Positions 7,328 through 22,085 of a DNA stretch of 64,000 nt are shown here, piece after piece. The position numbers and the translations under genes are program-made. Each line of letters starts with the position of its first letter. Positions within the stretch are counted from its first letter, which is position 1. Source of the stretch: an uncultured Opitutia bacterium (lineage in GTDB: Bacteria; Verrucomicrobiota; Verrucomicrobiia; Opitutales; Opitutaceae); assembly GCA_903902745.1 (NCBI GenBank), contig CAIUWA010000034.1:1-64000 (forward strand), written 5' to 3'. The notes beneath the pieces were generated by a model. The model searched no databases. It had not been told where the DNA came from and worked only from the letters and a program-made list of their open reading frames with translations.

Positions 7328-8020
7328 ATGAAGTTCACCGTACAAACCCTGTTTTCCCTTGCGCTCCTTGGCGCCCTCACCCTGACCGGCCATGCCGCCC
7401 AACCGGCGCCCGTCATCCTCGTCGTCGACATGGCCAAGCTCTACGACGGCCACTGGCAGACCGAGGAGCAGAACGCCAAGTTGAGCCGCGACCAGCAGAC
7501 CGCCACCGAGCAGCTCCAGCAGCTGAACGCGGAGGGCCAGACACTCGTGGATCAGTACAAGGAGCTCGATGAGCAGGCGAAAAGCCCGACCCTGACCAAC
7601 GAGGCGCGGGCCAAGGCCCAGGCCGACGCGCAGAAGAAATATGCGGAGATCCAGAGCAAGCAGAACGACGTCAGCGCGTTTCAAACCAACACGCAGCGTT
7701 CGCTCCAGCAGCGCATCAAGACCTTCCGCGACCTCATGCTGGAGCAGATCAGCAGCGTTGCCTCGAAGATTGCCAAGGACAAGGGCGCCACGCTCCTCCT
7801 CGACAAGTCCGGTCCGACCGCCATTGGCGTGTCGAACATCATCTACTCCGATCCCGCCTATGAAATCACGGAAGAAGTGATGAAGGAGTTGAACAAGGAT
7901 CGCCCGCCCGCCTCCGCGATGGCCGCGCCGGCCAAGATGGATGCCGCTGCGCCCGCCCCCGCTGCCGGTGCCCCTGCGACCAAGTCGCCCGTGATCACCG
8001 TGCCCGGCGCGAAGAAATAA
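7328..8020 (+). CDS. skp: Periplasmic chaperone of the Skp/OmpH family
   Basis: Skp trimers hold unfolded outer membrane proteins in the periplasm on their way to BamA. A signal peptide (residues 1-22, ending GHAAQ) is followed by VILVVDMAKLYDGHW, the family's N-terminal strand. A long coiled coil forms the tentacles (residues 45-150). The C-terminal 35 residues are Ala/Pro-rich and probably disordered, which makes the protein (230 residues) longer than typical Skp (about 160-190). It sits between bamA and lpxD in the conserved order. A terminator follows. Confidence 0.9.
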   Translation: MKFTVQTLFSLALLGALTLTGHAAQPAPVILVVDMAKLYDGHWQTEEQNAKLSRDQQTATEQLQQLNAEGQTLVDQYKELDEQAKSPTLTNEARAKAQADAQKKYAEIQSKQNDVSAFQTNTQRSLQQRIKTFRDLMLEQISSVASKIAKDKGATLLLDKSGPTAIGVSNIIYSDPAYEITEEVMKELNKDRPPASAMAAPAKMDAAAPAPAAGAPATKSPVITVPGAKK

Positions 8021-13502: not shown

Positions 13503-14522
13503 TCAGTCCGGCACTTCGATCATCGCCTTGAGCACGGCGGGATTGCCGGCGATGGACGCGGGGAAGACCACGGGCGTTTCAGCCAGAGCGAAGCGATGGG
13601 TGATCCAGGGCCGGGTGTTCACCCGGCCGCTTTCAACGAGTCGGATGATGTCGCGGAACGTGTCGGGCGGGGCGTTGCGGCTGGCGCACAGGGTGAGTTC
13701 ACGCCGGTGGAAATTAGGGTCGTTGAAGGTGACGTCGCCTTGAAAAAGACCGACGAAGACAATCCGGCCACCATGTGCCACCGACTCGAAGGTTCCGGCC
13801 ATCGATTTGGCATTGCCGGTGGCATCGATCACGATGGTCGGCAGGTCGCCACCGCCCGTGGCCTTGAGTTGCGCCGGTGCATCCGGGCCTGGGGCAAGGG
13901 TGTGCCCGACGCCAAGCTGCGAGCGGCAAAAGGCCAGGCGTGATTCACTGACGTCCATGACGGCCAGGGTGGCGCCGGTCACGAGGACAAACTGGATCAC
14001 GCTCAGGCCGATGGGGCCGGCGCCGATCACGAGGACAAAATCGTTCTTTTTCACCTCGGCTCGCTCCACGGCGTGTGCGCCGATGCCAAGCGTTTCGATG
14101 AGTGCCAGCTGATCATAGTCGAGGGTGGCGGACCGGTGCAACTTGCGGGCGGGCACGCGTAGGAACGGGCGCATGCCGCCGTCGACGTGGACGCCCAGCA
14201 CCTTGAGCTCCGTGCAGCAGTTCGGCTTGCCGCGGCGGCAGGCAATGCACCGGCCGCAGTTGAGATAGGGCTCGACGGAGCAACGGTCGCCGCGCTGAAG
14301 GCCATGAGGATCGTCGCCGGGGTCAATCACCTCCACGCCCAGCTCATGGCCCAGGATGCGCGGATAGCTGAAAAACGGCTGCTTGCCGGCAAAGGCATGA
14401 AGGTCGGTGCCACAAACGCCGATGCGATGAACGCGAACCAGGGCATGGCCGGGCAAGGATGCCGGTTCGGCGCCTTCCCCGGCGCTGAACTGACCCGGTT
14501 GATCGAGGGTGATTTGGAGCAT
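13503..14522 (-). CDS. Zinc-dependent alcohol dehydrogenase (MDR), sugar-acid type
   Basis: Medium-chain dehydrogenase. The catalytic zinc residues lie in GVCGTDLH and LGHELG. The structural zinc lobe keeps its four Cys (CGRCIACRRGKPNCC). The Rossmann dinucleotide site is VLVIGAGPIGLSVIQ. Length 339 fits L-threonine/sorbitol/L-galactonate dehydrogenase relatives. It lies 12 bases downstream of an aldo/keto reductase resembling L-galactose dehydrogenase. A role as L-galactonate 5-dehydrogenase or a related polyol/sugar-acid enzyme is therefore plausible, but this is an inference from context. Confidence 0.85.
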   Translation of the reverse strand: MLQITLDQPGQFSAGEGAEPASLPGHALVRVHRIGVCGTDLHAFAGKQPFFSYPRILGHELGVEVIDPGDDPHGLQRGDRCSVEPYLNCGRCIACRRGKPNCCTELKVLGVHVDGGMRPFLRVPARKLHRSATLDYDQLALIETLGIGAHAVERAEVKKNDFVLVIGAGPIGLSVIQFVLVTGATLAVMDVSESRLAFCRSQLGVGHTLAPGPDAPAQLKATGGGDLPTIVIDATGNAKSMAGTFESVAHGGRIVFVGLFQGDVTFNDPNFHRRELTLCASRNAPPDTFRDIIRLVESGRVNTRPWITHRFALAETPVVFPASIAGNPAVLKAMIEVPD

Positions 14523-14534
14523 GGCAGGAGAGGG

Positions 14535-15488
14535 TCAGGCGACGAGGGGATCGTGGTTTTCGGGCCGGCCTCGGGTGAAGTTATGATTGTGGATCGGGCG
14601 GAGAATCTCGAGGACGCGACCCAGGAGCTCCCGGTCTATGTCTTGCGCGGCGTAGGCGACGTTCTTCCGAATGTTATCCGGGCTGGCGGTGCCGACGAGT
14701 GTGGTCGCGATGCCGGGGTGGCTGGTCGCGAATTGAATCGCGAGCTTGACGAGGTCGGCTCCGATCGACCGGCAATATTCGACGGCCTTGCGGCTGCCCT
14801 CGACCATGGCCTTTGTGGCGGGATGCCACCCCGGGACGCCGCGCTCGGTGAGCAGGCCCATGCCGGTCGGCGAGGCATTGATCACGCCCACGCCCTTTTT
14901 CTGGAAATAAGGCAGCAGGGTTTCAAGCGCGGTATCGTTAAGCTCATAGCGGCAGAAGGACAGGATGGTCTCAACGATCCCGGATCCAACCCGGTCGACG
15001 ACCGACGGAAAGACCTTGATGGGCAGTCCCGTGATTCCGATGTGCCCAATGCGACCTGCTTGGCGCAATTTGACGAGGGCCGGTAGGGTTTCGTCCACGA
15101 TCTGGTTCAGATCGGCGAACTCGATGTCGTGGCATTGCAGCAGGTCTATGTAGTCGACGCCGAGACGGGCGCAGCTCTCGTCGAGGCTTCGCGTCACGCG
15201 CGCGGCGGAGAAGTCGAACTGGCCGTCGTCGTACTGGCCAACTTTGGTGGCGAGAATGTAGCGGTCGCGGGCGATGCCGCGCAGGGCCCGGCCGAGCACC
15301 GTCTCGGCCTTGGTGGCGCCATAGTAGGGCGAAACGTCGATGAAATTGATGCCGAGATCCAGCGCGGTGTGCACGGTGCGGATGCCCTCCTGGTCGTCGG
15401 TGTTGCGAAATACCCCACCTAGCGGGGATGCCCCGTAGCTCAGGATGGAGACGTTGAGGCCGGTTTGGCCGAGCGGGCGGTATTGCAT
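14535..15488 (-). CDS. Aldo/keto reductase, L-galactose dehydrogenase-like
   Basis: NAD(P)-dependent oxidoreductase with a TIM barrel. The sequence closely follows the plant L-galactose dehydrogenase pattern: YRPLGQTGLNVS, GASPLGGVF, the catalytic Asp/Tyr segment FIDVSPYYG, the Lys in ILATKVGQY, LLQCHDIEF, IGITGLPI, and GVGVINASPTGMGLLT. Length 317 is normal. In bacteria this group oxidises L-galactose, L-fucose or D-arabinose at C1. It is the first gene of a two-gene minus-strand unit with the zinc dehydrogenase. The exact sugar cannot be read from sequence. Confidence 0.88.
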   Translation of the reverse strand: MQYRPLGQTGLNVSILSYGASPLGGVFRNTDDQEGIRTVHTALDLGINFIDVSPYYGATKAETVLGRALRGIARDRYILATKVGQYDDGQFDFSAARVTRSLDESCARLGVDYIDLLQCHDIEFADLNQIVDETLPALVKLRQAGRIGHIGITGLPIKVFPSVVDRVGSGIVETILSFCRYELNDTALETLLPYFQKKGVGVINASPTGMGLLTERGVPGWHPATKAMVEGSRKAVEYCRSIGADLVKLAIQFATSHPGIATTLVGTASPDNIRKNVAYAAQDIDRELLGRVLEILRPIHNHNFTRGRPENHDPLVA

Positions 15489-15674
15489 GAGTGGCAGTCA
15501 GGGAAGGCCAAGGGCGGGGGATTGGGGTTTAAACTCCAAAGGATGCTGTTCGCCAAGCACCGAGGTGGAAGGGCGCGGTTGGCAGTTGGCTTTATCGTCC
15601 GCCTGAATCCGGGAAAACAAGCCGGGATCACTCCAAGCATTGATTTGCACGAGGTGGCCAGACCGCGAAATCAT

Positions 15675-15710
15675 AAAAAAGGCGGCCTGGTCCGAAGACC
15701 AGAGCCGCCT
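15675..15710 (-). terminator. Strong intrinsic terminator of the exbB-tonB operon
   Basis: AGGCGGCCTGGTC (15680-15692) pairs with GACCAG plus GCCGCCT (15697-15710, one bulged A) around a CGAA tetraloop. On the minus strand the stem is followed by six Us (AAAAAA at 15675-15680). It lies 34 bases after the last gene. Confidence 0.9.
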
Positions 15711-15743
15711 GAAATATCAGGGTGCAAGGCGCGTGAACGTGGC

Positions 15744-16286
15744 TCAGCGAGCGGGTGCCACCGGAGCAACGGGGGGAGGCATTCTGGTGAGTGAGCTGTC
15801 AGCCGCCCGATCGGCGATCATCTTTGTCATCCGCTGAATATCGAGCTCGGCGGTGCGCCGGTCGATCTTGGTGAGTTCCACCGACTTGATGAGATCGAGA
15901 TATTCGCGGTTAGCCTGATCCCGCTGGTTGCGGAGTCGGGTCGACTCATCCTCGAGTTCGGCGATTTTCTTCGCCGAGGCGGCCGCCTCGGCCTTGGCCT
16001 TGTCGGTCTGCTCCTGGATCCGGTCGCCGTCGGCCTTCCATTTCGCAGCCTTGTCGGCCTCCTTCTTTAGGCGCTCGTCCTCGCGCTCCTTGGCCTTTTT
16101 GGCCGCGCTTTCACTGGCCTCCTTCTGCAGGCGGGCCTTCCGGTCATCATCGGCCTTTTTCTCCTCGATGAGCTTGGCCGCATGGACGCGCTCCTTTTCC
16201 TCCATTTTGTTCACTTCCGCAAAATAGAGGAAGAGAAACAGAATCAGCCCGCCGCCGGGGAAAATGACATACATCCACTTTTTCAT
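15744..16286 (-). CDS. Membrane-anchored coiled-coil protein, last gene of the ExbB/TonB operon
   Basis: 180 residues. A short charged start (MKKWMY) and one hydrophobic segment (about residues 6-23) precede an almost continuous charged helix to residue 160, rich in Lys, Glu, Asp, Ala and Arg. A Pro/Ala tail (MPPPVAPVAPAR) ends the protein. The segment fits an uncleaved inner-membrane anchor with a long coiled coil, probably in the periplasm. No enzyme motif or known family is recognised. It shares architecture with the gene just upstream (17-base gap), suggesting paired or duplicated structural subunits. Position after a TonB-type protein and a TPR protein suggests a scaffold of the motor complex. 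Confidence 0.8.
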   Translation of the reverse strand: MKKWMYVIFPGGGLILFLFLYFAEVNKMEEKERVHAAKLIEEKKADDDRKARLQKEASESAAKKAKEREDERLKKEADKAAKWKADGDRIQEQTDKAKAEAAASAKKIAELEDESTRLRNQRDQANREYLDLIKSVELTKIDRRTAELDIQRMTKMIADRAADSSLTRMPPPVAPVAPAR

Positions 16287-16303
16287 GTTAAAATCAAATT
16301 GGG

Positions 16304-16858
16304 TTATTTCTTGGCCTTGGCGGCGGCGGCGGCGGCCTCGGCCGCTGCTTTGACCGCGGCCTCGTCGGCTTCCTTGATCTTCTGCAACACGGATTGCAGG
16401 CCGGCGACATTGTCCTGGGCCTGCTTCACATAGGTACGAAGAAACTCCTGTTCCTTGGCAGCCTTCTTTTTGTCCTCTTCAATGCTGGCGAATTCCTTCT
16501 TGGTTGCATCCACCTCTTTGCTCAGCCGGTCGATTTTCTGGGTGAGGGCGGAGGCGTCGCGAACCGCCTTGTCCCGCTGCTCAATGGCCAAGTCACGGGC
16601 CTCAACTTGCTCAGCATCGTGCTTTTCCTTGGCTTCCTTCTCTTTCTTGCGGAGGGCGGAAGCGGTCATGGCGTCGTCAAAGGCCTTTTTCGTGTCCCGG
16701 TTCCTGGCCTCAAGCTTCTCCTTTTTAGCCTTTTGATCCAACTCGGCTTTTTGGGCCAGGTTCTGCTCATAATTGGAACTAAAGTTCCAGTAGAGCGCCC
16801 CGAAGATGACGAGTCCGATCAGGGGAACGAGGAAGTAAATGGTGTTCTTCTTCTTCAT
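16304..16858 (-). CDS. Membrane-anchored coiled-coil protein, sixth gene of the ExbB/TonB operon
   Basis: 184 residues. MKKKNTIYFLVPLIGLVIFGALYW gives one N-terminal membrane segment. From about residue 28 to the end the chain is a charged helix with coiled-coil character (Lys/Glu/Ala/Asp-rich, with KIDRLSKEVDATKKEFASIEEDK in the middle) and a poly-Ala/Lys end. It lacks Cys, a catalytic motif or any family I recognise. Gaps of 16 and 17 bases to its neighbours place it firmly in the operon. It resembles the next gene in layout (anchor plus rod) although residue identity is low by eye. Confidence 0.8.
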   Translation of the reverse strand: MKKKNTIYFLVPLIGLVIFGALYWNFSSNYEQNLAQKAELDQKAKKEKLEARNRDTKKAFDDAMTASALRKKEKEAKEKHDAEQVEARDLAIEQRDKAVRDASALTQKIDRLSKEVDATKKEFASIEEDKKKAAKEQEFLRTYVKQAQDNVAGLQSVLQKIKEADEAAVKAAAEAAAAAAKAKK

Positions 16859-16874
16859 GATTAAAGTGGCTGGA

Positions 16875-18308
16875 TTATAGCTTCTGCTTGGCCTTCAGGG
16901 CCTCAATCTGGGCATTGTGCTCCTTGATGGCCTTTTCGACGAAATCTTTGAGGCCGGGCAATTGGTGATCCTTCTTGGATTCGGGAAAACTCAAGGCCTT
17001 GGTCACCGCCTCAAGCGCCTCATCATATTGCCGGAGTTCATACGCGGTATACGCCACGAGGGACCAAGCCAGCCAAGTTTTGTCCCCGAGACCCTTGGTG
17101 GCGGCCAAACTGGCCTGCTGGAGGGCTTCCGGAAATTTCTCCAAGGCGTAATAGTTTTGTGCGGCCATGAAGTCGAAATCGCCGGAATTGGGAAAGTGCT
17201 TCGCAGCTTCCTTGAGGACCTCGATCGCCTTCAACTCCTGGTTGATCTGCTGATACCACTGGGCAAGAAAGGTCCAGTACTTCTGTTCGGACTCAATGGA
17301 GCCGTTCTTCAGGTCGGCTTCCAGCAACCGCGCGGCGTGCTCGGTCTGACCAATGTTAAAATAGGTGCTGACCAGCGCGAAGTTATCCTTGGGTGTCTTT
17401 AGATGGCCGGCGGCTTGGGCCCGTTCATAGGTCACGATGGCCCTGATATTGTAATCCAAGGCCTTTTGCTTGTCCGTGGCGTCAGTGCCGAGGGTGAGAT
17501 AAATGGCGCTGAGCTGCGTCCAATTGTCCTTATTGGTCGGATCCTTCTTTAGCATCAGCTCAATGACCTCGGCTGCTGCGGGATAATCATTCTGCATCAC
17601 GAGGATGCTTTGCAGGAGCTGGTAGAACTGACGCGGAGGTGTGATCGCCAAAAGCAGCCCTTCCTCGGAAACTTTTCGCGCCTCGGTGAGTAGGGCCTGA
17701 TCGGGCTTTTCAGCGTTGGCTTGGGCACGCTGCAACAGCAGGTAGGCATAGAGTAGAAAATCGTCCGTATTGAGCGCGTGATTTTCACGCTCATTCAAGA
17801 TCAGCCGCTTGAGGTAGTCCCCGGCCTTGATGTAATCCTGCTGCTGCTCGGCAGGGGGGACACCCTTGGCGGATCCCTGGGCATTGTAGATCTGCGCGAG
17901 ATACTTGAGCAATCTGCGCTCGTCCTTGTCCGAAAGGAAATTGTGGCGGTCAGAAACGGCCAGGGCTTTCTCCAGCGGATCGATGGCCTTGGGAAACTGG
18001 TCAATCTGGATGAAGACCTGCCCCTTGACGTAATCGACGGTGAATTCCTCAAACGAATCGGGTTTGGCGATCTTCTGCAGTTCGGTGAGCTGGGCCACCG
18101 CGTTGTCCCAGTCCTTGGCCTCTTGGAATGCGACGTATTTGGCCATCCCGTCGCGCACCTTTTCAGAGAGCTCCTTTTTGTCCTTGTCCTGCGCGGAGTC
18201 GGTCTGGGCCAGGACGGCGGAGGGCAGGGTGAGGGCCGCGAGCAGGGCCAAGACGCCAAAGGCGGGGCGAAGCGAACGGATGGAGGGGAAGAGGGGAATG
18301 GCGGTCAC
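16875..18308 (-). CDS. Exported TPR-repeat protein of the ExbB/TonB operon
   Basis: 477 residues starting at a GTG six bases after the tonB stop. A signal peptide (residues about 15-35, ending AVLAQ) directs it to the periplasm. The rest is helical with tetratricopeptide-like units: PLEKALAVSDRHNFL, AAAEVIELMLKKDPTNKDNWTQLSAIYLTLG, YWTFLAQWYQQINQELKAIEVLKEAAKHFPNSGDFDFMAAQNYYALEKF in short segments, and YTAYELRQYDEALEAVTKAL. TPR arrays mediate protein-protein contacts, so it probably links the TonB-like protein or the coiled-coil proteins to a client. No catalytic domain is seen. Confidence 0.87.
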   Translation of the reverse strand: MTAIPLFPSIRSLRPAFGVLALLAALTLPSAVLAQTDSAQDKDKKELSEKVRDGMAKYVAFQEAKDWDNAVAQLTELQKIAKPDSFEEFTVDYVKGQVFIQIDQFPKAIDPLEKALAVSDRHNFLSDKDERRLLKYLAQIYNAQGSAKGVPPAEQQQDYIKAGDYLKRLILNERENHALNTDDFLLYAYLLLQRAQANAEKPDQALLTEARKVSEEGLLLAITPPRQFYQLLQSILVMQNDYPAAAEVIELMLKKDPTNKDNWTQLSAIYLTLGTDATDKQKALDYNIRAIVTYERAQAAGHLKTPKDNFALVSTYFNIGQTEHAARLLEADLKNGSIESEQKYWTFLAQWYQQINQELKAIEVLKEAAKHFPNSGDFDFMAAQNYYALEKFPEALQQASLAATKGLGDKTWLAWSLVAYTAYELRQYDEALEAVTKALSFPESKKDHQLPGLKDFVEKAIKEHNAQIEALKAKQKL

Positions 18309-18314
18309 GGCGGA

Positions 18315-18965
18315 TTACTCGTCATTAAGGCTGAACACGATGGGCACGCGCATGCGGGTGGGCACGGCGGCGCCGCCCTTTTTGCCGGGCTTGAATCTCC
18401 ACTTCATCACGGCCTTCACGGCCTCGGCCTCAAATTCACGCTGGGTGGAGGGAAGGGCGAAGGCGTCACGCACCAAGCCCGTTTTATCAACGATGAATTC
18501 CACGACGACCGTGCCTGTAATGCCGGCCCGCCGCATTTCGAACGGGTAGAGCGGCTTGCTCTGAACGGTGGGGACAGGTTGCTGGTCGAGCTGGGAAAGG
18601 TCGAAAATCTGGCCAAGGCCGGCACCCGCGACCAACTGACCCTGCGGGATGTTGATCACGCCGGTGACGGGCTGCAGACCCTCGGGCGGCGGGGGCTGCA
18701 ATTGCTGGACGAACGAATCGACCTGGATGACCTGTGGCGTGTCGAGCTGCATCGGGGCGAAATCGAGCTGGGGCGTGGGCGTATCCTCTACCTCCTTGGG
18801 ATCCGGCTCATCGGGCTCGATCGGAGGCAACTTCAAGGCGATCACGTGCTCCTCCTCCTGCTTAACGACCTTCTGGGCCCCCGGCTTGATCAACTCTCCG
18901 ATCCAGGCGGTTCCGCCCAGGGTCACGAAGGCGATAATGATACCGATGATTAAATCGCGACGCAT
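18315..18965 (-). CDS. TonB-family energy transducer
   Basis: 216 residues from the ATG at 18965; a longer frame starting at 19082 overlaps exbD and is unlikely. MRRDLIIGIIIAFVTLGGTAWIG is a single N-terminal membrane anchor. A Pro/Glu-rich periplasmic spacer follows (residues 40-135: LPPIEPDEPDPKEVEDTP). The C-terminal TonB domain is about residues 140-214: PLYPFEMRRAGITGTVVVEF, VDKTGLVRDA, AVMKWRFKPGKK. TonB proteins pass proton-motive-force energy from ExbB/ExbD to outer-membrane partners. Ten bases separate it from exbD2. Confidence 0.92.
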   Translation of the reverse strand: MRRDLIIGIIIAFVTLGGTAWIGELIKPGAQKVVKQEEEHVIALKLPPIEPDEPDPKEVEDTPTPQLDFAPMQLDTPQVIQVDSFVQQLQPPPPEGLQPVTGVINIPQGQLVAGAGLGQIFDLSQLDQQPVPTVQSKPLYPFEMRRAGITGTVVVEFIVDKTGLVRDAFALPSTQREFEAEAVKAVMKWRFKPGKKGGAAVPTRMRVPIVFSLNDE

Positions 18966-18975
18966 GGTGAAGGGG

Positions 18976-19410
18976 TTATTTGCCGGTGGCGCGGAAGCGC
19001 GTTTCAACGGAGACTTGGGTGATCCCGGACTTGCGCACCAGATCCAGCACCCGCACGGCGGCACCGAATCGGGCCCGGTCATCGCCGGCGATCAGAATGC
19101 GCGGCTCGGCGACCTCGCCCTTGTATTGTTTGATGCGCGCCTCGACCTCGTCCATGTTGATCAGTTCCTTGTTCCAATAAAGGGTGTTCTGGTCGGAAAC
19201 CTGCAGCGTCACGTCGTCGTTTTTCTCTTGTTGTTCCTGCGAAGGCGAGGGGACGGGCAGGGTGATTGGCAGCGACTGGATTTTGTCCAGCGAGAGCGTG
19301 AACAGGACGAAGGTTGCGAGCAGGAAGAAGATGACGTCAATGAGAGGAATGATCTCAATGCGCGCCTTCTTCTTGCCCTCACCTGTTTGTCTGGATCCGC
19401 CACCGGCCAT
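18976..19410 (-). CDS. ExbD/TolR-family motor protein, second copy
   Basis: 144 residues. After a short basic N-terminus the single membrane segment IEIIPLIDVIFFLLATFVLF carries the conserved proton-path Asp. A periplasmic domain follows (VTLQVSDQNTLYWNKELI, ILIAGDDRARFG). Together with ExbB it forms the proton-driven stator that energises TonB. It lies 57 bases after the first exbD copy and 10 before tonB. The two ExbD copies are clearly homologous but not recent duplicates, which suggests two different roles. Confidence 0.93.
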   Translation of the reverse strand: MAGGGSRQTGEGKKKARIEIIPLIDVIFFLLATFVLFTLSLDKIQSLPITLPVPSPSQEQQEKNDDVTLQVSDQNTLYWNKELINMDEVEARIKQYKGEVAEPRILIAGDDRARFGAAVRVLDLVRKSGITQVSVETRFRATGK

Positions 19411-19467
19411 AGGGAATTATAGTTGATTGATTAAAGGTTGCAAATCGCGCCGCGCCCCGGCGCTGAC

Positions 19468-19908
19468 TCAGGAAGTTGTCGGCGGGTGTACGCGGGTTTC
19501 AACGAGCACCTTGCCGAAACCGGCCTTGCGCACTTCGTCGACCACGTATCCGAAAACCTGGGTGAAATAGGCGTTCTCGTCGCCGTTGATCAGAATGCGG
19601 CCATCGGGGTTGGCGATTTTGTAAGCCTGGAGATGAGTGATGAACTCTCCTGTCGGGATGAGATCATGATCCCAGGCAATGCCGCCCTCGGAAGTGATGC
19701 TGATCGTGACTGTCCCCGCCGGATCGCGGACCTCGGCGGTCTCGGACGATGGGAGATCCACCCTGATGCCACCCGATTTATTCAGAGAGAGCGTATAGAG
19801 CACGAACGTCGCGAGCAGGAAGAAAATGACGTCAATGAGGGGAATGACCTCAATGCGCGCTTTCTTGATGCCGCCGCTGGTGGGTAAGATGGAGGGGCCG
19901 CCGGCCAT
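19468..19908 (-). CDS. ExbD/TolR-family motor protein, first copy
   Basis: 146 residues with the same plan as the next gene: basic N-terminus (SGGIKKARIEVIPLID), one membrane helix with the conserved Asp (PLIDVIFFLLATFVLYTL), and a periplasmic ExbD domain (TVTISITSEGGIAWDHDLIP, ILINGDENAYFTQV). A pair of ExbD-type subunits behind one ExbB also occurs in myxobacterial gliding motors (AglR with AglQ and AglS) and in some TonB systems. The gap to exbB is 48 bases. Confidence 0.93.
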   Translation of the reverse strand: MAGGPSILPTSGGIKKARIEVIPLIDVIFFLLATFVLYTLSLNKSGGIRVDLPSSETAEVRDPAGTVTISITSEGGIAWDHDLIPTGEFITHLQAYKIANPDGRILINGDENAYFTQVFGYVVDEVRKAGFGKVLVETRVHPPTTS

Positions 19909-19956
19909 GGTAGAATGAGTGGTGTCTAGAAGGGTAACGATGCAACCGCCGTTTTC

Positions 19957-20694
19957 TTAGTGGCGGGGAGCAAACGGGGGCATCGTCTCAGACTTCTTGA
20001 CCAGGATCTCGAGCGCGTTGAACGCGTCGGCCACCTCATGCTTGGCCTCTTCCGTGCGGGCATTGAGATAGTTGAAGGGGACCAGCGCGGTGGCCGCGAT
20101 GAAGATACCGCACATGGTGGCGATAAGGGCCTCAGCCACGCCGTTGGTGATCGTGCCCATGCCCGCGGTGAGGTCGCCGGTGCCCAGCGCGCCGAAGGTG
20201 GCCATCATGCCGGTCACGGTGCCGAGCAACCCGAGGAGAGGGGAGATCGTGATGACGGTATCGAGGGTTGCCATGCCTTGCCCGTAACGGGCGAGCTCCT
20301 GGCCGGATGAGCGAATGAACGCGTTGGTCAGGGAGTATTCCTTGTTGGTCAGGGTGTAGACGAGAATACGGGCCAGGAAGTCGGGGCTTTTCTTGCCGGC
20401 CGCCAGTGCGCCGTCGATATCGCGGCGCTCAACACACTCGAGCATCTTCTGCACGACCTCGGGCTGGCGGTTCTTGTTTTCGCGCATGATGAAGAGCAGG
20501 CGCTCGACCACCACGGTGATGCCCACAAAGGCGACCACGAGGATGGGCCACATGACATAGCGTCCCTTTTTGAACAGCTCCATCGGGGTCGCATCACCCA
20601 GGATGAATCCCAGGGAGAGATGCGGACTGACGAGATGGTGGTTGGATGCGATATCGCCGAGCATGAGCGCGAGCGGGAGGTTCGGAGTAATCAT
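19957..20694 (-). CDS. ExbB/TolQ/MotA-family proton channel
   Basis: 245 residues, first gene of the operon. An N-terminal membrane segment (YVMWPILVVAFVGITVVVERLLF) is followed by a cytoplasmic loop. Two further helices then carry the family's signature (TLDTVITISPLLGLLGTVTGMMATF and GVAEALIATMCGIFIAATALVPFNYL). It would form the pentameric channel that uses proton flow to drive ExbD and TonB. The sequence before residue 35 is hydrophobic but poorly conserved, so a start at the internal Met37 is possible. Confidence 0.94.
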   Translation of the reverse strand: MITPNLPLALMLGDIASNHHLVSPHLSLGFILGDATPMELFKKGRYVMWPILVVAFVGITVVVERLLFIMRENKNRQPEVVQKMLECVERRDIDGALAAGKKSPDFLARILVYTLTNKEYSLTNAFIRSSGQELARYGQGMATLDTVITISPLLGLLGTVTGMMATFGALGTGDLTAGMGTITNGVAEALIATMCGIFIAATALVPFNYLNARTEEAKHEVADAFNALEILVKKSETMPPFAPRH

Positions 20695-20931
20695 AGGGAG
20701 GAAGGTTGTCTGCGATTGGTCAGTTGGTAAGAAAGGAGAGTGAAGGTGGCGTGGTAAACGTAAGGATGATAGATGTCACTTACTTCGCCGGACAACCATC
20801 AGCAGGCTCGCGGGACGGCTGGCTAAATTGCAGGAATCATTCCCAAGCCGGATGAAAAAAATCGATGGTAGCGCGGAAAATGAATCAGCATGTCGCTTCA
20901 AAACGGGGGTAAAAGAAAAGTGAGAAAGTGA

Positions 20932-20960
20932 ATTAGTGTTAAATGAAAGTGGGGTGTCAA
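20932..20960 (-). promoter_or_regulatory. Candidate promoter of the exbB-tonB operon
   Basis: On the minus strand a perfect -35 box TTGACA (20955-20960) is followed after 17 bases by ACTAAT (20932-20937), matching four of six -10 positions. The -35 lies in a GTGGG/CCCAC palindrome, which could be an operator. The leader would be about 230 bases. Confidence 0.45.
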
Positions 20961-21084
20961 CCCACATTCCGGGCGAGTCGGGAAATTAGGTTCCCATCCT
21001 CCGTCATTAGAAAATCAACGCGGTTCCGTCGGACTCAAACACGATTCAAACGATCACGGTCTGTCGCGAGAAAACCCCGGATCG

Positions 21085-21102
21085 CCGCCGGTTTGCCGGC
21101 GG
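21085..21102 (-). terminator. Hairpin downstream of tRNA-Gln
   Basis: CCGCCGG and CCGGCGG form a 7-bp GC stem around TTTG about 97 bases after the tRNA-Gln 3' end. There is no adjacent U-run, only TTTT a dozen bases further on, so termination is uncertain. Confidence 0.35.
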
Positions 21103-21198
21103 AATGTCCGCAACTTTACTTGCCTCACTTCAGGAAAATCGGTCGTGGGCGCCGGCCACTGATCAATATCGAATGTGCCGGCTTTAAATCGAGTCAAT

Positions 21199-21272
21199 TG
21201 GCTGCCCGACTAGGAGTCGAACCTAGACAAAACGAGTCAGAGTCGTTTGTGCTACCATTACACCATCGGGCA
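21199..21272 (-). tRNA. tRNA-Gln (anticodon CTG)
   Basis: The acceptor TGCCCGA pairs with TCGGGCA, discriminator G, and CCA is encoded (21199-21201). The anticodon arm AACGA/TCGTT holds loop CTCTGAC, anticodon CTG (reads CAG). 74 nt. Confidence 0.95.
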
Positions 21273-21332
21273 GTGAAAAATTATTCGGCGGGAAACGCGT
21301 GGGCCGGCCCTACACCGTCAAGGCTAGGGCGG

Positions 21333-21386
21333 GCCTGCTTCGCTTCACGCAACAAGCTCTTCGCTTGGTTGGCGTCTCGCGAAGGC
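21333..21386. repeat. Imperfect inverted repeat between tRNA-Gln and tRNA-Thr
   Basis: The arm 21333-21357 and the reverse complement of 21363-21386 align with few gaps (shared GCCT, TTCGC, ACGC and CAAGC blocks) around a 5-base loop. It lies between the two tRNA genes and may be a repeat remnant. Confidence 0.5.
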
Positions 21387-21394
21387 TGGCGGTG

Positions 21395-21423
21395 CCATGC
21401 ATAGCTCGGAGAGCGAAGCATGG
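21395..21423. repeat. 29-base hairpin fused to the 3' end of tRNA-Thr
   Basis: Starts CCATGC and ends GCATGG, with inner pairing around CTCGGAGAG. Its last three bases (TGG, 21421-21423) are the encoded CCA of the tRNA. A related 29-base hairpin at 21663-21691 has the same length, position and paired substitutions in the stem. Confidence 0.8.
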
Positions 21424-21495
21424 AGCCGGCGATGGGATTCGAACCCGCAACCGCCTGTTTACAAAACAGGTGCTCTACCGTTGAGCTACGCCGGC
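21421..21495 (-). tRNA. tRNA-Thr (anticodon TGT)
   Basis: The acceptor GCCGGCG pairs with CGCCGGC, discriminator T, and CCA is encoded (21421-21423). The anticodon arm CCTGT/ACAGG holds loop TTTGTAA, anticodon TGT. 75 nt. Confidence 0.95.
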
Positions 21496-21662
21496 ACAAG
21501 CGCTGCGGCGCTGGCCGAGAAGATTTGGAAAAATGGAAAAGAACGGTGGCCGGAGGCAAATCCGGTCAAGAGAGAAGCGAGTCGATTACACTCTGGTTTT
21601 GTGACGAACCTGTCGAATCAAACAACTGCACTGGTGGATCAAGGCACTCAAATCTGGCGGCG

Positions 21663-21691
21663 CCATCCGTAGCCCGAGGGACGAAGGATGG
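21663..21691. repeat. 29-base hairpin fused to the 3' end of tRNA-Lys
   Basis: Starts CCATCC and ends GGATGG; the last three bases (21689-21691) are the encoded CCA of tRNA-Lys. Compared with 21395-21423 the stem shows a matched pair change (CCATGC/GCATGG to CCATCC/GGATGG). The pairing is kept while the sequence changed. Confidence 0.8.
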
Positions 21692-21763
21692 TGGCTCCCC
21701 GGGGACTCGAACCCCGAACCTACTGATTAAGAGTCAGCTGCTCTACCATTGAGCTAGGAAGCC
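21689..21763 (-). tRNA. tRNA-Lys (anticodon CTT)
   Basis: The acceptor GGCTTCC pairs with GGGAGCC (one G-T pair), discriminator A, and CCA is encoded (21689-21691). The anticodon arm GCTGA/TCAGT has loop CTCTTAA, anticodon CTT. 75 nt. Confidence 0.94.
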
Positions 21764-22085
21764 AAAAACACAGAGGTAAAAAAACTCATCAGGCCGTCCG
21801 GGTTGTCAACAGTGATTTCGGTTGCGTGGTGAATTCTGCGCCCGGCTGGGGATGATTTTCGGGTGGAAACACGGTGGTCGGCCACGGATTTCACAAATAA
21901 CCACAGATACTGCAGGCGATCATTTGTGCCGTCTGTAATCGGTGGCTAAATTCCGACCGGTTCACACGGGTGGATCGGTGATCCATCCTAACACCAGGCA
22001 GTTTTGGGCGAAATTAGGACACGGGCTGTCAGAGGGCTGGGTTGACTCTATGGGCTGGACACGGAAAGTCGCGAGTCCTGCGCCC
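21764..22085. other. Gene-free interval before folP
   Basis: About 320 bases between tRNA-Lys and the chosen folP start. It contains the inverted repeat at 21876-21958. No promoter stands out. In-frame extensions of folP to 21942 (GTG) or 22050 (ATG) are possible, but the first starts inside the repeat. Confidence 0.5.
21876..21958. repeat. Inverted repeat upstream of folP
   Basis: Arm ends GGTCGG (21876) and CCGACC (to 21958) flank further matches: a CCACGGATT...CACAAAT segment against its complement ATTTGTG...AATCGGTGG. It has the same style as the intergenic repeats before pheT and ureG. Confidence 0.55.

Follow-up and report, generated by a model that had tools for sequence, protein, structure and literature searches.

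A minus-strand seven-gene operon of an Opitutia bacterium probably encodes a Ton energizer with a TtpD-like TPR protein, two diverged ExbDs and a pair of membrane-anchored rods

Results

The stretch of DNA analyzed here (the window) comprises 64,000 nucleotides of contig CAIUWA010000034.1 from an uncultured Opitutia bacterium (GenBank assembly GCA_903902745.1), and our study concerns a minus-strand operon at 20694-15744 in which seven open reading frames (ORFs) run in the same direction in the order exbB-exbD-exbD-tonB-TPR-CC1-CC2 (TPR, tetratricopeptide repeat; CC, coiled coil). An earlier note, made from the sequence alone, had described these seven genes at this place, and the first five are now backed by Pfam matches above cut-off. 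ExbB (19957..20694), the proton-channel subunit, matches MotA_ExbB (2e-23); its start is uncertain, since the protein has 245 amino acids (aa) here versus a median of 222 aa in relatives. The first ExbD (ExbD1, 19468..19908) and the second, diverged one (ExbD2, 18976..19410) match ExbD (2e-21 and 4e-27), and both carry the membrane Asp within the motif PLIDVIF. TonB (18315..18965) has an N-terminal membrane helix, a proline-rich linker and a TonB_C domain (3e-17); its most likely start is 18965 (MRRDLIIG...), as judged from the alignment with relatives, the ORF start at 19082 falling within exbD2. With this corrected start, the intergenic gaps range from 6 to 57 nucleotides (nt). The TPR protein (16875..18308) begins with GTG, has a signal-peptide-like N terminus and matches several TPR models, and it is followed by CC1 (16304..16858, conserved in its position) and CC2 (15744..16286), each with an N-terminal membrane helix and a charged coiled-coil-like rod; neither rod has an above-cut-off Pfam family. 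The strong terminator noted previously was borne out by a minus-strand hairpin followed by a T run at 15680..15710 (-25.9 kcal/mol, z -6.0). As for the promoter claimed at a TTGACA motif, the motif is present at 20960-20955 and a promoter scan of 14500-22000 listed none there, giving 4 sites against a chance expectation of 2.3 (standard deviation 1.4); the promoter evidence for the operon is weak.

The gene set is conserved as a unit. A search of 57 relatives with the TPR protein matched 32, from which the flanks of 38 loci were taken; 36 of these loci are of the seven-gene type, the other two (L073 and L074) being TonB2-type operons. All seven genes stand in the same order in 31 of the 36, and the other 5 end at a contig edge. 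A scan of named genomes with a TonB alignment, covering the best 80 of 183 relatives and overlapping the first set in part, gave all seven genes in order at 70/80 loci, with 10/80 again ending at a contig edge; the titles of these genomes mostly read Opitutaceae, Opitutae, Opitutus or Verrucomicrobia. Wherever a locus could be seen whole, all seven genes were present. The TPR and coiled-coil genes thus stay with exbB, exbD and tonB, as expected from the earlier proposal of one proton-driven unit with periplasmic parts, and a plain TonB set with chance neighbors was rejected because every fully visible locus has the TPR protein and the rods. Among 288 genomes sampled across the phylum, the TPR profile matched strongly in 25 and weakly in 1 other, and strong matches to the CC2 profile (E below 1e-50) fell in these very 25; its weak matches in 15 more (E 1e-3 to 1e-6) cover short stretches, mostly of much longer frames. 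The CC2 match in locus L068 sits in an overlong frame. The window's family, apparently Opitutaceae, accounts for 24 of the 25 strong-match genomes. The remaining one, G055, belongs to another family within the same taxonomic order; its operon may be a horizontal gain, because two members of the same genus had no match. Full-text searches of the open PMC literature returned no description that we recognized as this seven-gene set.

The AlphaFold2 model of the TPR protein is a confident TPR superhelix (predicted local distance difference test [pLDDT], 92.5), and since a lipobox is missing from the first 45 residues in 79/80 of its relatives, the protein is probably soluble and exported. Its profile matched that of the TPR proteins from TonB2-type operons of the same taxonomic order at 99.7%, versus 5% for a control profile made of only two sequences. 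Moreover, the corresponding hidden Markov model found TPR proteins in Alteromonas, Pseudoalteromonas and Aeromonas records at 111-116 bits; the Aeromonas record is unannotated at the TPR site, and the other two are annotated as DUF3450-TolQ-like-ExbB-ExbD-TonB-TPR with a TonB-dependent receptor (TBDR) near by. When the TPR profile was run over 251 loci, in which 4,702 ORFs were 150 aa or longer, the hits between 20 and 200 bits were nine TonB2-type TPR proteins and another TPR protein in L100 (46 bits), so that a general TPR resemblance was rejected as the cause of the match. That scan left the 916- and 921-aa TPR proteins of the window's own genome unmatched and also missed the TonB2-type TPR proteins of L143 and L250, both of which a similar profile found. 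These profile comparisons make the TPR protein a homologue of its TonB2-type counterpart, and it can be called TtpD-like. Siderophore uptake in Vibrio vulnificus cannot do without TtpD2 and TtpB2, which occupy the same positions, as stated in an extract of PMC6957404. A PDB fold search with the TPR model gave ordinary TPR superhelices (O-GlcNAc transferase and LGN; top Z about 20-23, root mean square deviation 12-14) and, among the matches listed, no functional hint.

None of the seven proteins matched DUF3450 (PF11932) up to E 1, nor is a TtpC-like long TolQ among them, the single ExbB having at most 245 aa versus 451-523 aa for the long TolQ-like proteins of TonB2-type loci. The window's genome holds one weak DUF3450-like match (E 2.7e-4, below cut-off), which lies outside the operon at 7457-7732 on the plus strand of the window, and comparable weak matches occur several kilobases from the operon in G017, G024, G028 and G032. 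We inspected 12 DUF3450-type loci (L073, L074, L141-L149 and L250), which were picked through DUF3450 and TPR matches and are therefore not an unbiased sample; 11 have a long TolQ-like protein, an ExbD, and a TonB or TPR protein adjoining, L143 and L144 lack a TonB match, and L148 is truncated where its contig begins. Among the 37 sampled genomes of the family, DUF3450 matches above cut-off occur in 6/7 genomes without the seven-gene set versus 5/30 with it (Fisher p 0.0012, ignoring kinship), G013 being counted as having the set because it carries the start of the operon.

The statement in the earlier note that no receptor lies nearby holds for the window, whose contig has 0 of the genome's 17 Plug matches, and does not extend to other genomes, in which some copies have adjoining TBDRs. 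Across the family's 37 sampled genomes, Plug matches number between 2 and more than 60 per genome, with only about 67 candidates scored in each. A profile of eight TBDRs, seven of which come from loci beside the Ton operons of this study and are thus found by construction, detected a TBDR-like ORF in 12/118 loci (38 + 80, in overlapping sets), mostly far from the operon. The 36 seven-gene loci of the TPR search consist of 18 with the usual flanks, 16 with other neighbors and two short fragments that were excluded. TBDR-like ORFs were found in 5/16 of the other-neighbor loci (L057, L058, L060, L062 and, at 3.7 kb, L046), and in a sixth case, L053 of G035, a TBDR lies about 6 kb on, beyond asparaginases and amidases. 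The receptors that count most are those close to an operon: two TBDRs begin 54 nt past CC2 in G006, with amidases further on; in G007 a TBDR lies 0.3 kb past CC2 and is followed by an amidase; in G055 the distance is about 90 nt; and among the named loci, L193 has a divergent TBDR 0.26 kb upstream. G055 has only two Plug matches, one behind its seven-gene operon and the other behind its TonB2-type operon. The cassettes behind these two operons are paralogous, with 36% identity between the receptors over 983 aa and 45-48% between the proteins that come next, and both energizers of this genome therefore front the same kind of receptor.

The G055 cassettes (L060, L250 and L251) combine a TBDR with surface-type proteins and, as judged by eye, C-terminal PEP-motif proteins, and FecR and extracytoplasmic function sigma factor genes lie further downstream of one of them. 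TBDRs stand with amidases at L053/L151 (G035), L058/L152 (G006) and L057 (G007), and with asparaginases in G035. This shared neighborhood of amidases, asparaginases and TBDRs suggests that these copies, which lie outside the usual place, sit in a dedicated uptake island for amide compounds.

The motor core has the expected channel residues. Thr159, Glu188 and Thr193 of the window's ExbB align with Thr148, Glu176 and Thr181 of Escherichia coli, and equivalents of the first two occur in 99/99 ExbBs and of Thr181 in 97/99. Two ExbDs are present in every wholly visible seven-gene locus, with the membrane Asp motif in 76/78 ExbD1 and 78/78 ExbD2 proteins. In a tree of 74 ExbDs, 31 ExbD1 and 31 ExbD2 proteins fall on separate sides (supports 97/85 and a weaker 83/68), and 10 TonB2-type ExbDs stand apart (99/86). 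Because the two copies separate in this way, the duplication seems to predate the sampled family. TonB2-type loci with two ExbDs also exist (L074, L143, L144 and L250), and theirs form a clade of their own. For the window's ExbB and ExbDs, the TolQ/TolR models give slightly higher scores than those of ExbB/ExbD do, all of these comparisons being below cut-off.

The TonB-ExbB contact shows a paired variation. According to PMC12215075, ExbB Ser34 and Trp38 are contacted in the structure of the E. coli system by Ser16 and His20 of TonB, this His being described as essential; the title of Swayne and Postle 2011, as cited in a portion of PMC8928145, states that Asn is able to replace it. Of the corresponding residues of the SHLS motif (Ser-x3-His) in the TonB membrane helix, His is present in 73/81 and Ser in 75/81 TonBs. 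The window's TonB has Ala12 and Leu16 in place of the Ser12 and His16 of most relatives, L153 and L154 of the same genus are also without both, and the window's ExbB has Ala at position 55, which corresponds to Ser34 of E. coli. Ser occupies this position in all 85 His-bearing systems that have a residue there, versus 8/9 His-less systems without it, L067 being the exception that keeps Ser. This position is the ExbB column most strongly associated with the TonB His (Fisher 6e-8 with gaps as non-Ser, 8e-11 with gaps excluded; both ignore kinship). On a tree of 94 rows built without TonB and ExbB, from which the 5/99 rows gapped at the ExbB position were excluded, parsimony gives 6 changes of His and 5 of Ser, with about five joint losses. 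Independent pairs on well-supported branches were 4 changing together, 0 in opposite directions and 1 without change (underpowered sign test, p 0.125). The systems in which both residues are lost are those of the window, L153, L154, L192, L197, L198, L199 and L063. In the window's genus (the window, L153 and L154), the remaining motor is kept despite the loss of both contact residues. The covariation of TonB His and ExbB Ser at a known contact supports the usual docking of TonB on ExbB in most of the family.

The two rods appear to be paralogues, their profiles matching at 99.1% and the CC2 profile also finding CC1 genes, a kinship signal that may partly reflect composition. A third CC-like match occurs in the operon of G004 (L063), and L155 has two CC1 matches. 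AlphaFold2 draws CC2 as one helix over residues 4-163 (mean pLDDT 89.4). About 20 of these residues would lie in the membrane, and the ~140 beyond it, at a helix rise of 0.15 nm per residue, would give a rod of about 21 nm. The rods would be long enough to cross the periplasm; the length is an estimate, since this predictor readily draws charged sequences as a single helix. A kinship of CC1 and CC2 with TtpB/TtpC was unsupported (profile matches of 2-13%). TtpB and TtpC of TonB2-type loci of the same taxonomic order match each other at 93.9%. Given the TPR, CC1-CC2 and TtpB-TtpC matches, the seven-gene and TonB2-type systems both join a Ton motor to TPR proteins that are related and to two coiled-coil elements akin to each other, the coiled coils being different in the two systems.

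Elsewhere in the window's genome, contigs C18 (L135:7700-10450) and C45 (L136:1103-5790) carry two similar TPR-ExbB-ExbD sets, with the TPR proteins of 916 and 921 aa mentioned above, each adjoining a tuf-like gene. In L136 there follows a 240-aa protein with a membrane helix, a proline-rich stretch and no Pfam match. On C13 (L138:5278-6597) and C30 (L139:2653-5892), TonB_C stands in one frame with sigma-70 regions and with an M16 peptidase, respectively. Around the operon itself, three tRNA genes (Gln, Thr and Lys) lie upstream on the same strand, and the downstream neighbors are an aldo/keto reductase and a zinc alcohol dehydrogenase.

Discussion

Our comparisons argue for a Ton energizer that drives TonB-dependent receptors and most likely powers outer-membrane nutrient uptake, a reading that we hold to be quite probable from sequence evidence. 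Outer-membrane import is much the best explanation, since the TPR protein belongs with TonB2-type systems and some copies of the operon are linked to TBDRs. We propose a model in which an ExbB pentamer would enclose one ExbD1/ExbD2 heterodimer, as the two ExbDs are long diverged and both keep the Asp, and in which proton flow would drive the pore. TonB, docked outside ExbB at the first membrane helix, would pass the force on to the receptor. CC1 and CC2 may pair into an inner-membrane-anchored rod spanning the periplasm, and the exported TPR protein may bind the rods together with TonB or the receptor, thus keeping TonB in place. The TPR protein and rods would in this manner do the job of TtpB, TtpC and TtpD in TonB2-type systems. 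The earlier note had held that the job of this machine fits no nameable family; the membership of the TPR protein in TonB2-type operons and the TBDR-linked copies now point to one.

Nevertheless, several observations weigh against this interpretation. None of the 18 loci with the usual flanks, the window's copy included, has a TBDR-like ORF, and 10/16 of the other-neighbor loci are without a TBDR; these include L054 and L067, which belong to the four copies that G007 possesses. CC2 and the first receptor of G006 are separated by a terminator-like hairpin. Both the receptor-less copies and this hairpin lowered our confidence. A genome that is 98% complete and has 13 Plug matches (G011) possesses neither the seven-gene set nor a TonB2-type system, and the window's own genome has a further ExbB-ExbD-TonB-like set on C36 (with a TonB_2 domain), so that the operon is perhaps not its sole Ton motor. 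Finally, the window's TonB is without the His held essential in E. coli.

Among the other explanations, an ordinary ExbB-ExbD-TonB set whose TPR protein and rods are merely cotranscribed and serve a separate envelope function has a small chance of being right. The E. coli Ton system functions without a TPR protein or rods, and contact of these parts with the motor is a deduction in our model, which leaves room for such a separation; against it, no fully visible locus lacks any of the seven genes and the copies at other places carry the complete unit. Moreover, the corresponding TPR protein of the Vibrio TonB2 system is essential for iron uptake, according to an extract of PMC6957404. A Tol-like system for outer-membrane stability is very unlikely: the slightly better scores of ExbB and the ExbDs against TolQ/TolR, all below cut-off, and the lack of a TolB_N match in the window's genome, which makes a substitute conceivable, are set against a transducer ending in TonB_C, the TBDR-linked copies, and the lack of TolB and Pal domains in the seven proteins and the two downstream neighbors.

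The earlier note had also drawn a comparison with gliding in Myxococcus, the sole basis of which is the combination of one TolQ-like with two TolR-like proteins that the AglRQS motor shares with the operon. On this view, a dedicated surface-motility or envelope motor would use the rods and the TPR protein as a trans-envelope track or clutch, and the extra periplasmic parts would fit. The AglRQS motor is not known to have a TonB or a link to TBDRs, whereas the operon encodes a TonB with TonB_C, some of its copies adjoin TBDRs and its TPR protein goes with TonB2-type systems. A GltJ model had no match in the window's genome, a noisy negative in that the model also matches four unrelated control genomes and the other Glt partners were not searched. 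Closer at hand are the vWA force-transducer clusters of the Planctomycetes-Verrucomicrobia-Chlamydiae superphylum, to which the window also belongs: as described in part of PMC12204202, they resemble the operon in having a TPR protein, one TolQ-like and two TolR-like proteins, and gliding is floated there as a possibility. The window's transducer differs in ending in TonB_C and not in vWA, of which the seven proteins had no match up to E 1, and two rods follow. Altogether, we regard a motility motor as highly improbable.

The Ton energizer reading is best set beside the two known Ton architectures. The Vibrio-type TonB2 system (TtpB-TtpC-ExbB2-ExbD2-TonB2-TtpD2, as given in an extract of PMC6957404) resembles the operon in its homologous TPR protein directly after TonB and in its pair of related coiled-coil elements (93.9% for TtpB/TtpC, 99.1% for CC1/CC2). 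The seven-gene set differs in lacking TtpB (DUF3450) and the long TolQ (TtpC), in having two ExbDs, and in that its coiled coils are separate anchored rods placed last. With TonB-ExbB-ExbD of E. coli (PMC12215075), it shares the ExbB channel residues, the ExbD Asp, TonB_C and, in most of the family, the TonB Ser and His; it adds a second ExbD, the TPR protein and the two rods, mostly has I, V or L at the ExbB Trp38 position and, in the window's genus, is without the TonB His and ExbB Ser34. What appears to be new is thus a Ton energizer, found mainly in the window's family, that would combine a TtpD-like TPR protein, a diverged ExbD pair and two anchored rods.

For the window's genus, we also considered that the rods and TPR protein stand together as a fixed mast to which some of the coupling between motor and TonB has passed, a doubtful proposal to which we give a low chance. 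If true, TonB would work there without the His20-Ser34 contact thought to be needed by Ton and Tol motors, and the family would illustrate how rewiring can replace a membrane contact of a Ton motor by a periplasmic scaffold. Natural Ton motors with a paired His/Ser loss make the role of this contact directly testable.

Textbook accounts of Ton systems usually have three proteins, and systems of the TonB2 type need three more. The seven-gene family would keep the TPR subunit and have a different coiled-coil pair, and since the one is shared and the other differs, a comparison of both systems indicates what a Ton motor may really need in the way of accessory features. For the window's family, this operon would name the likely motor behind outer-membrane uptake.

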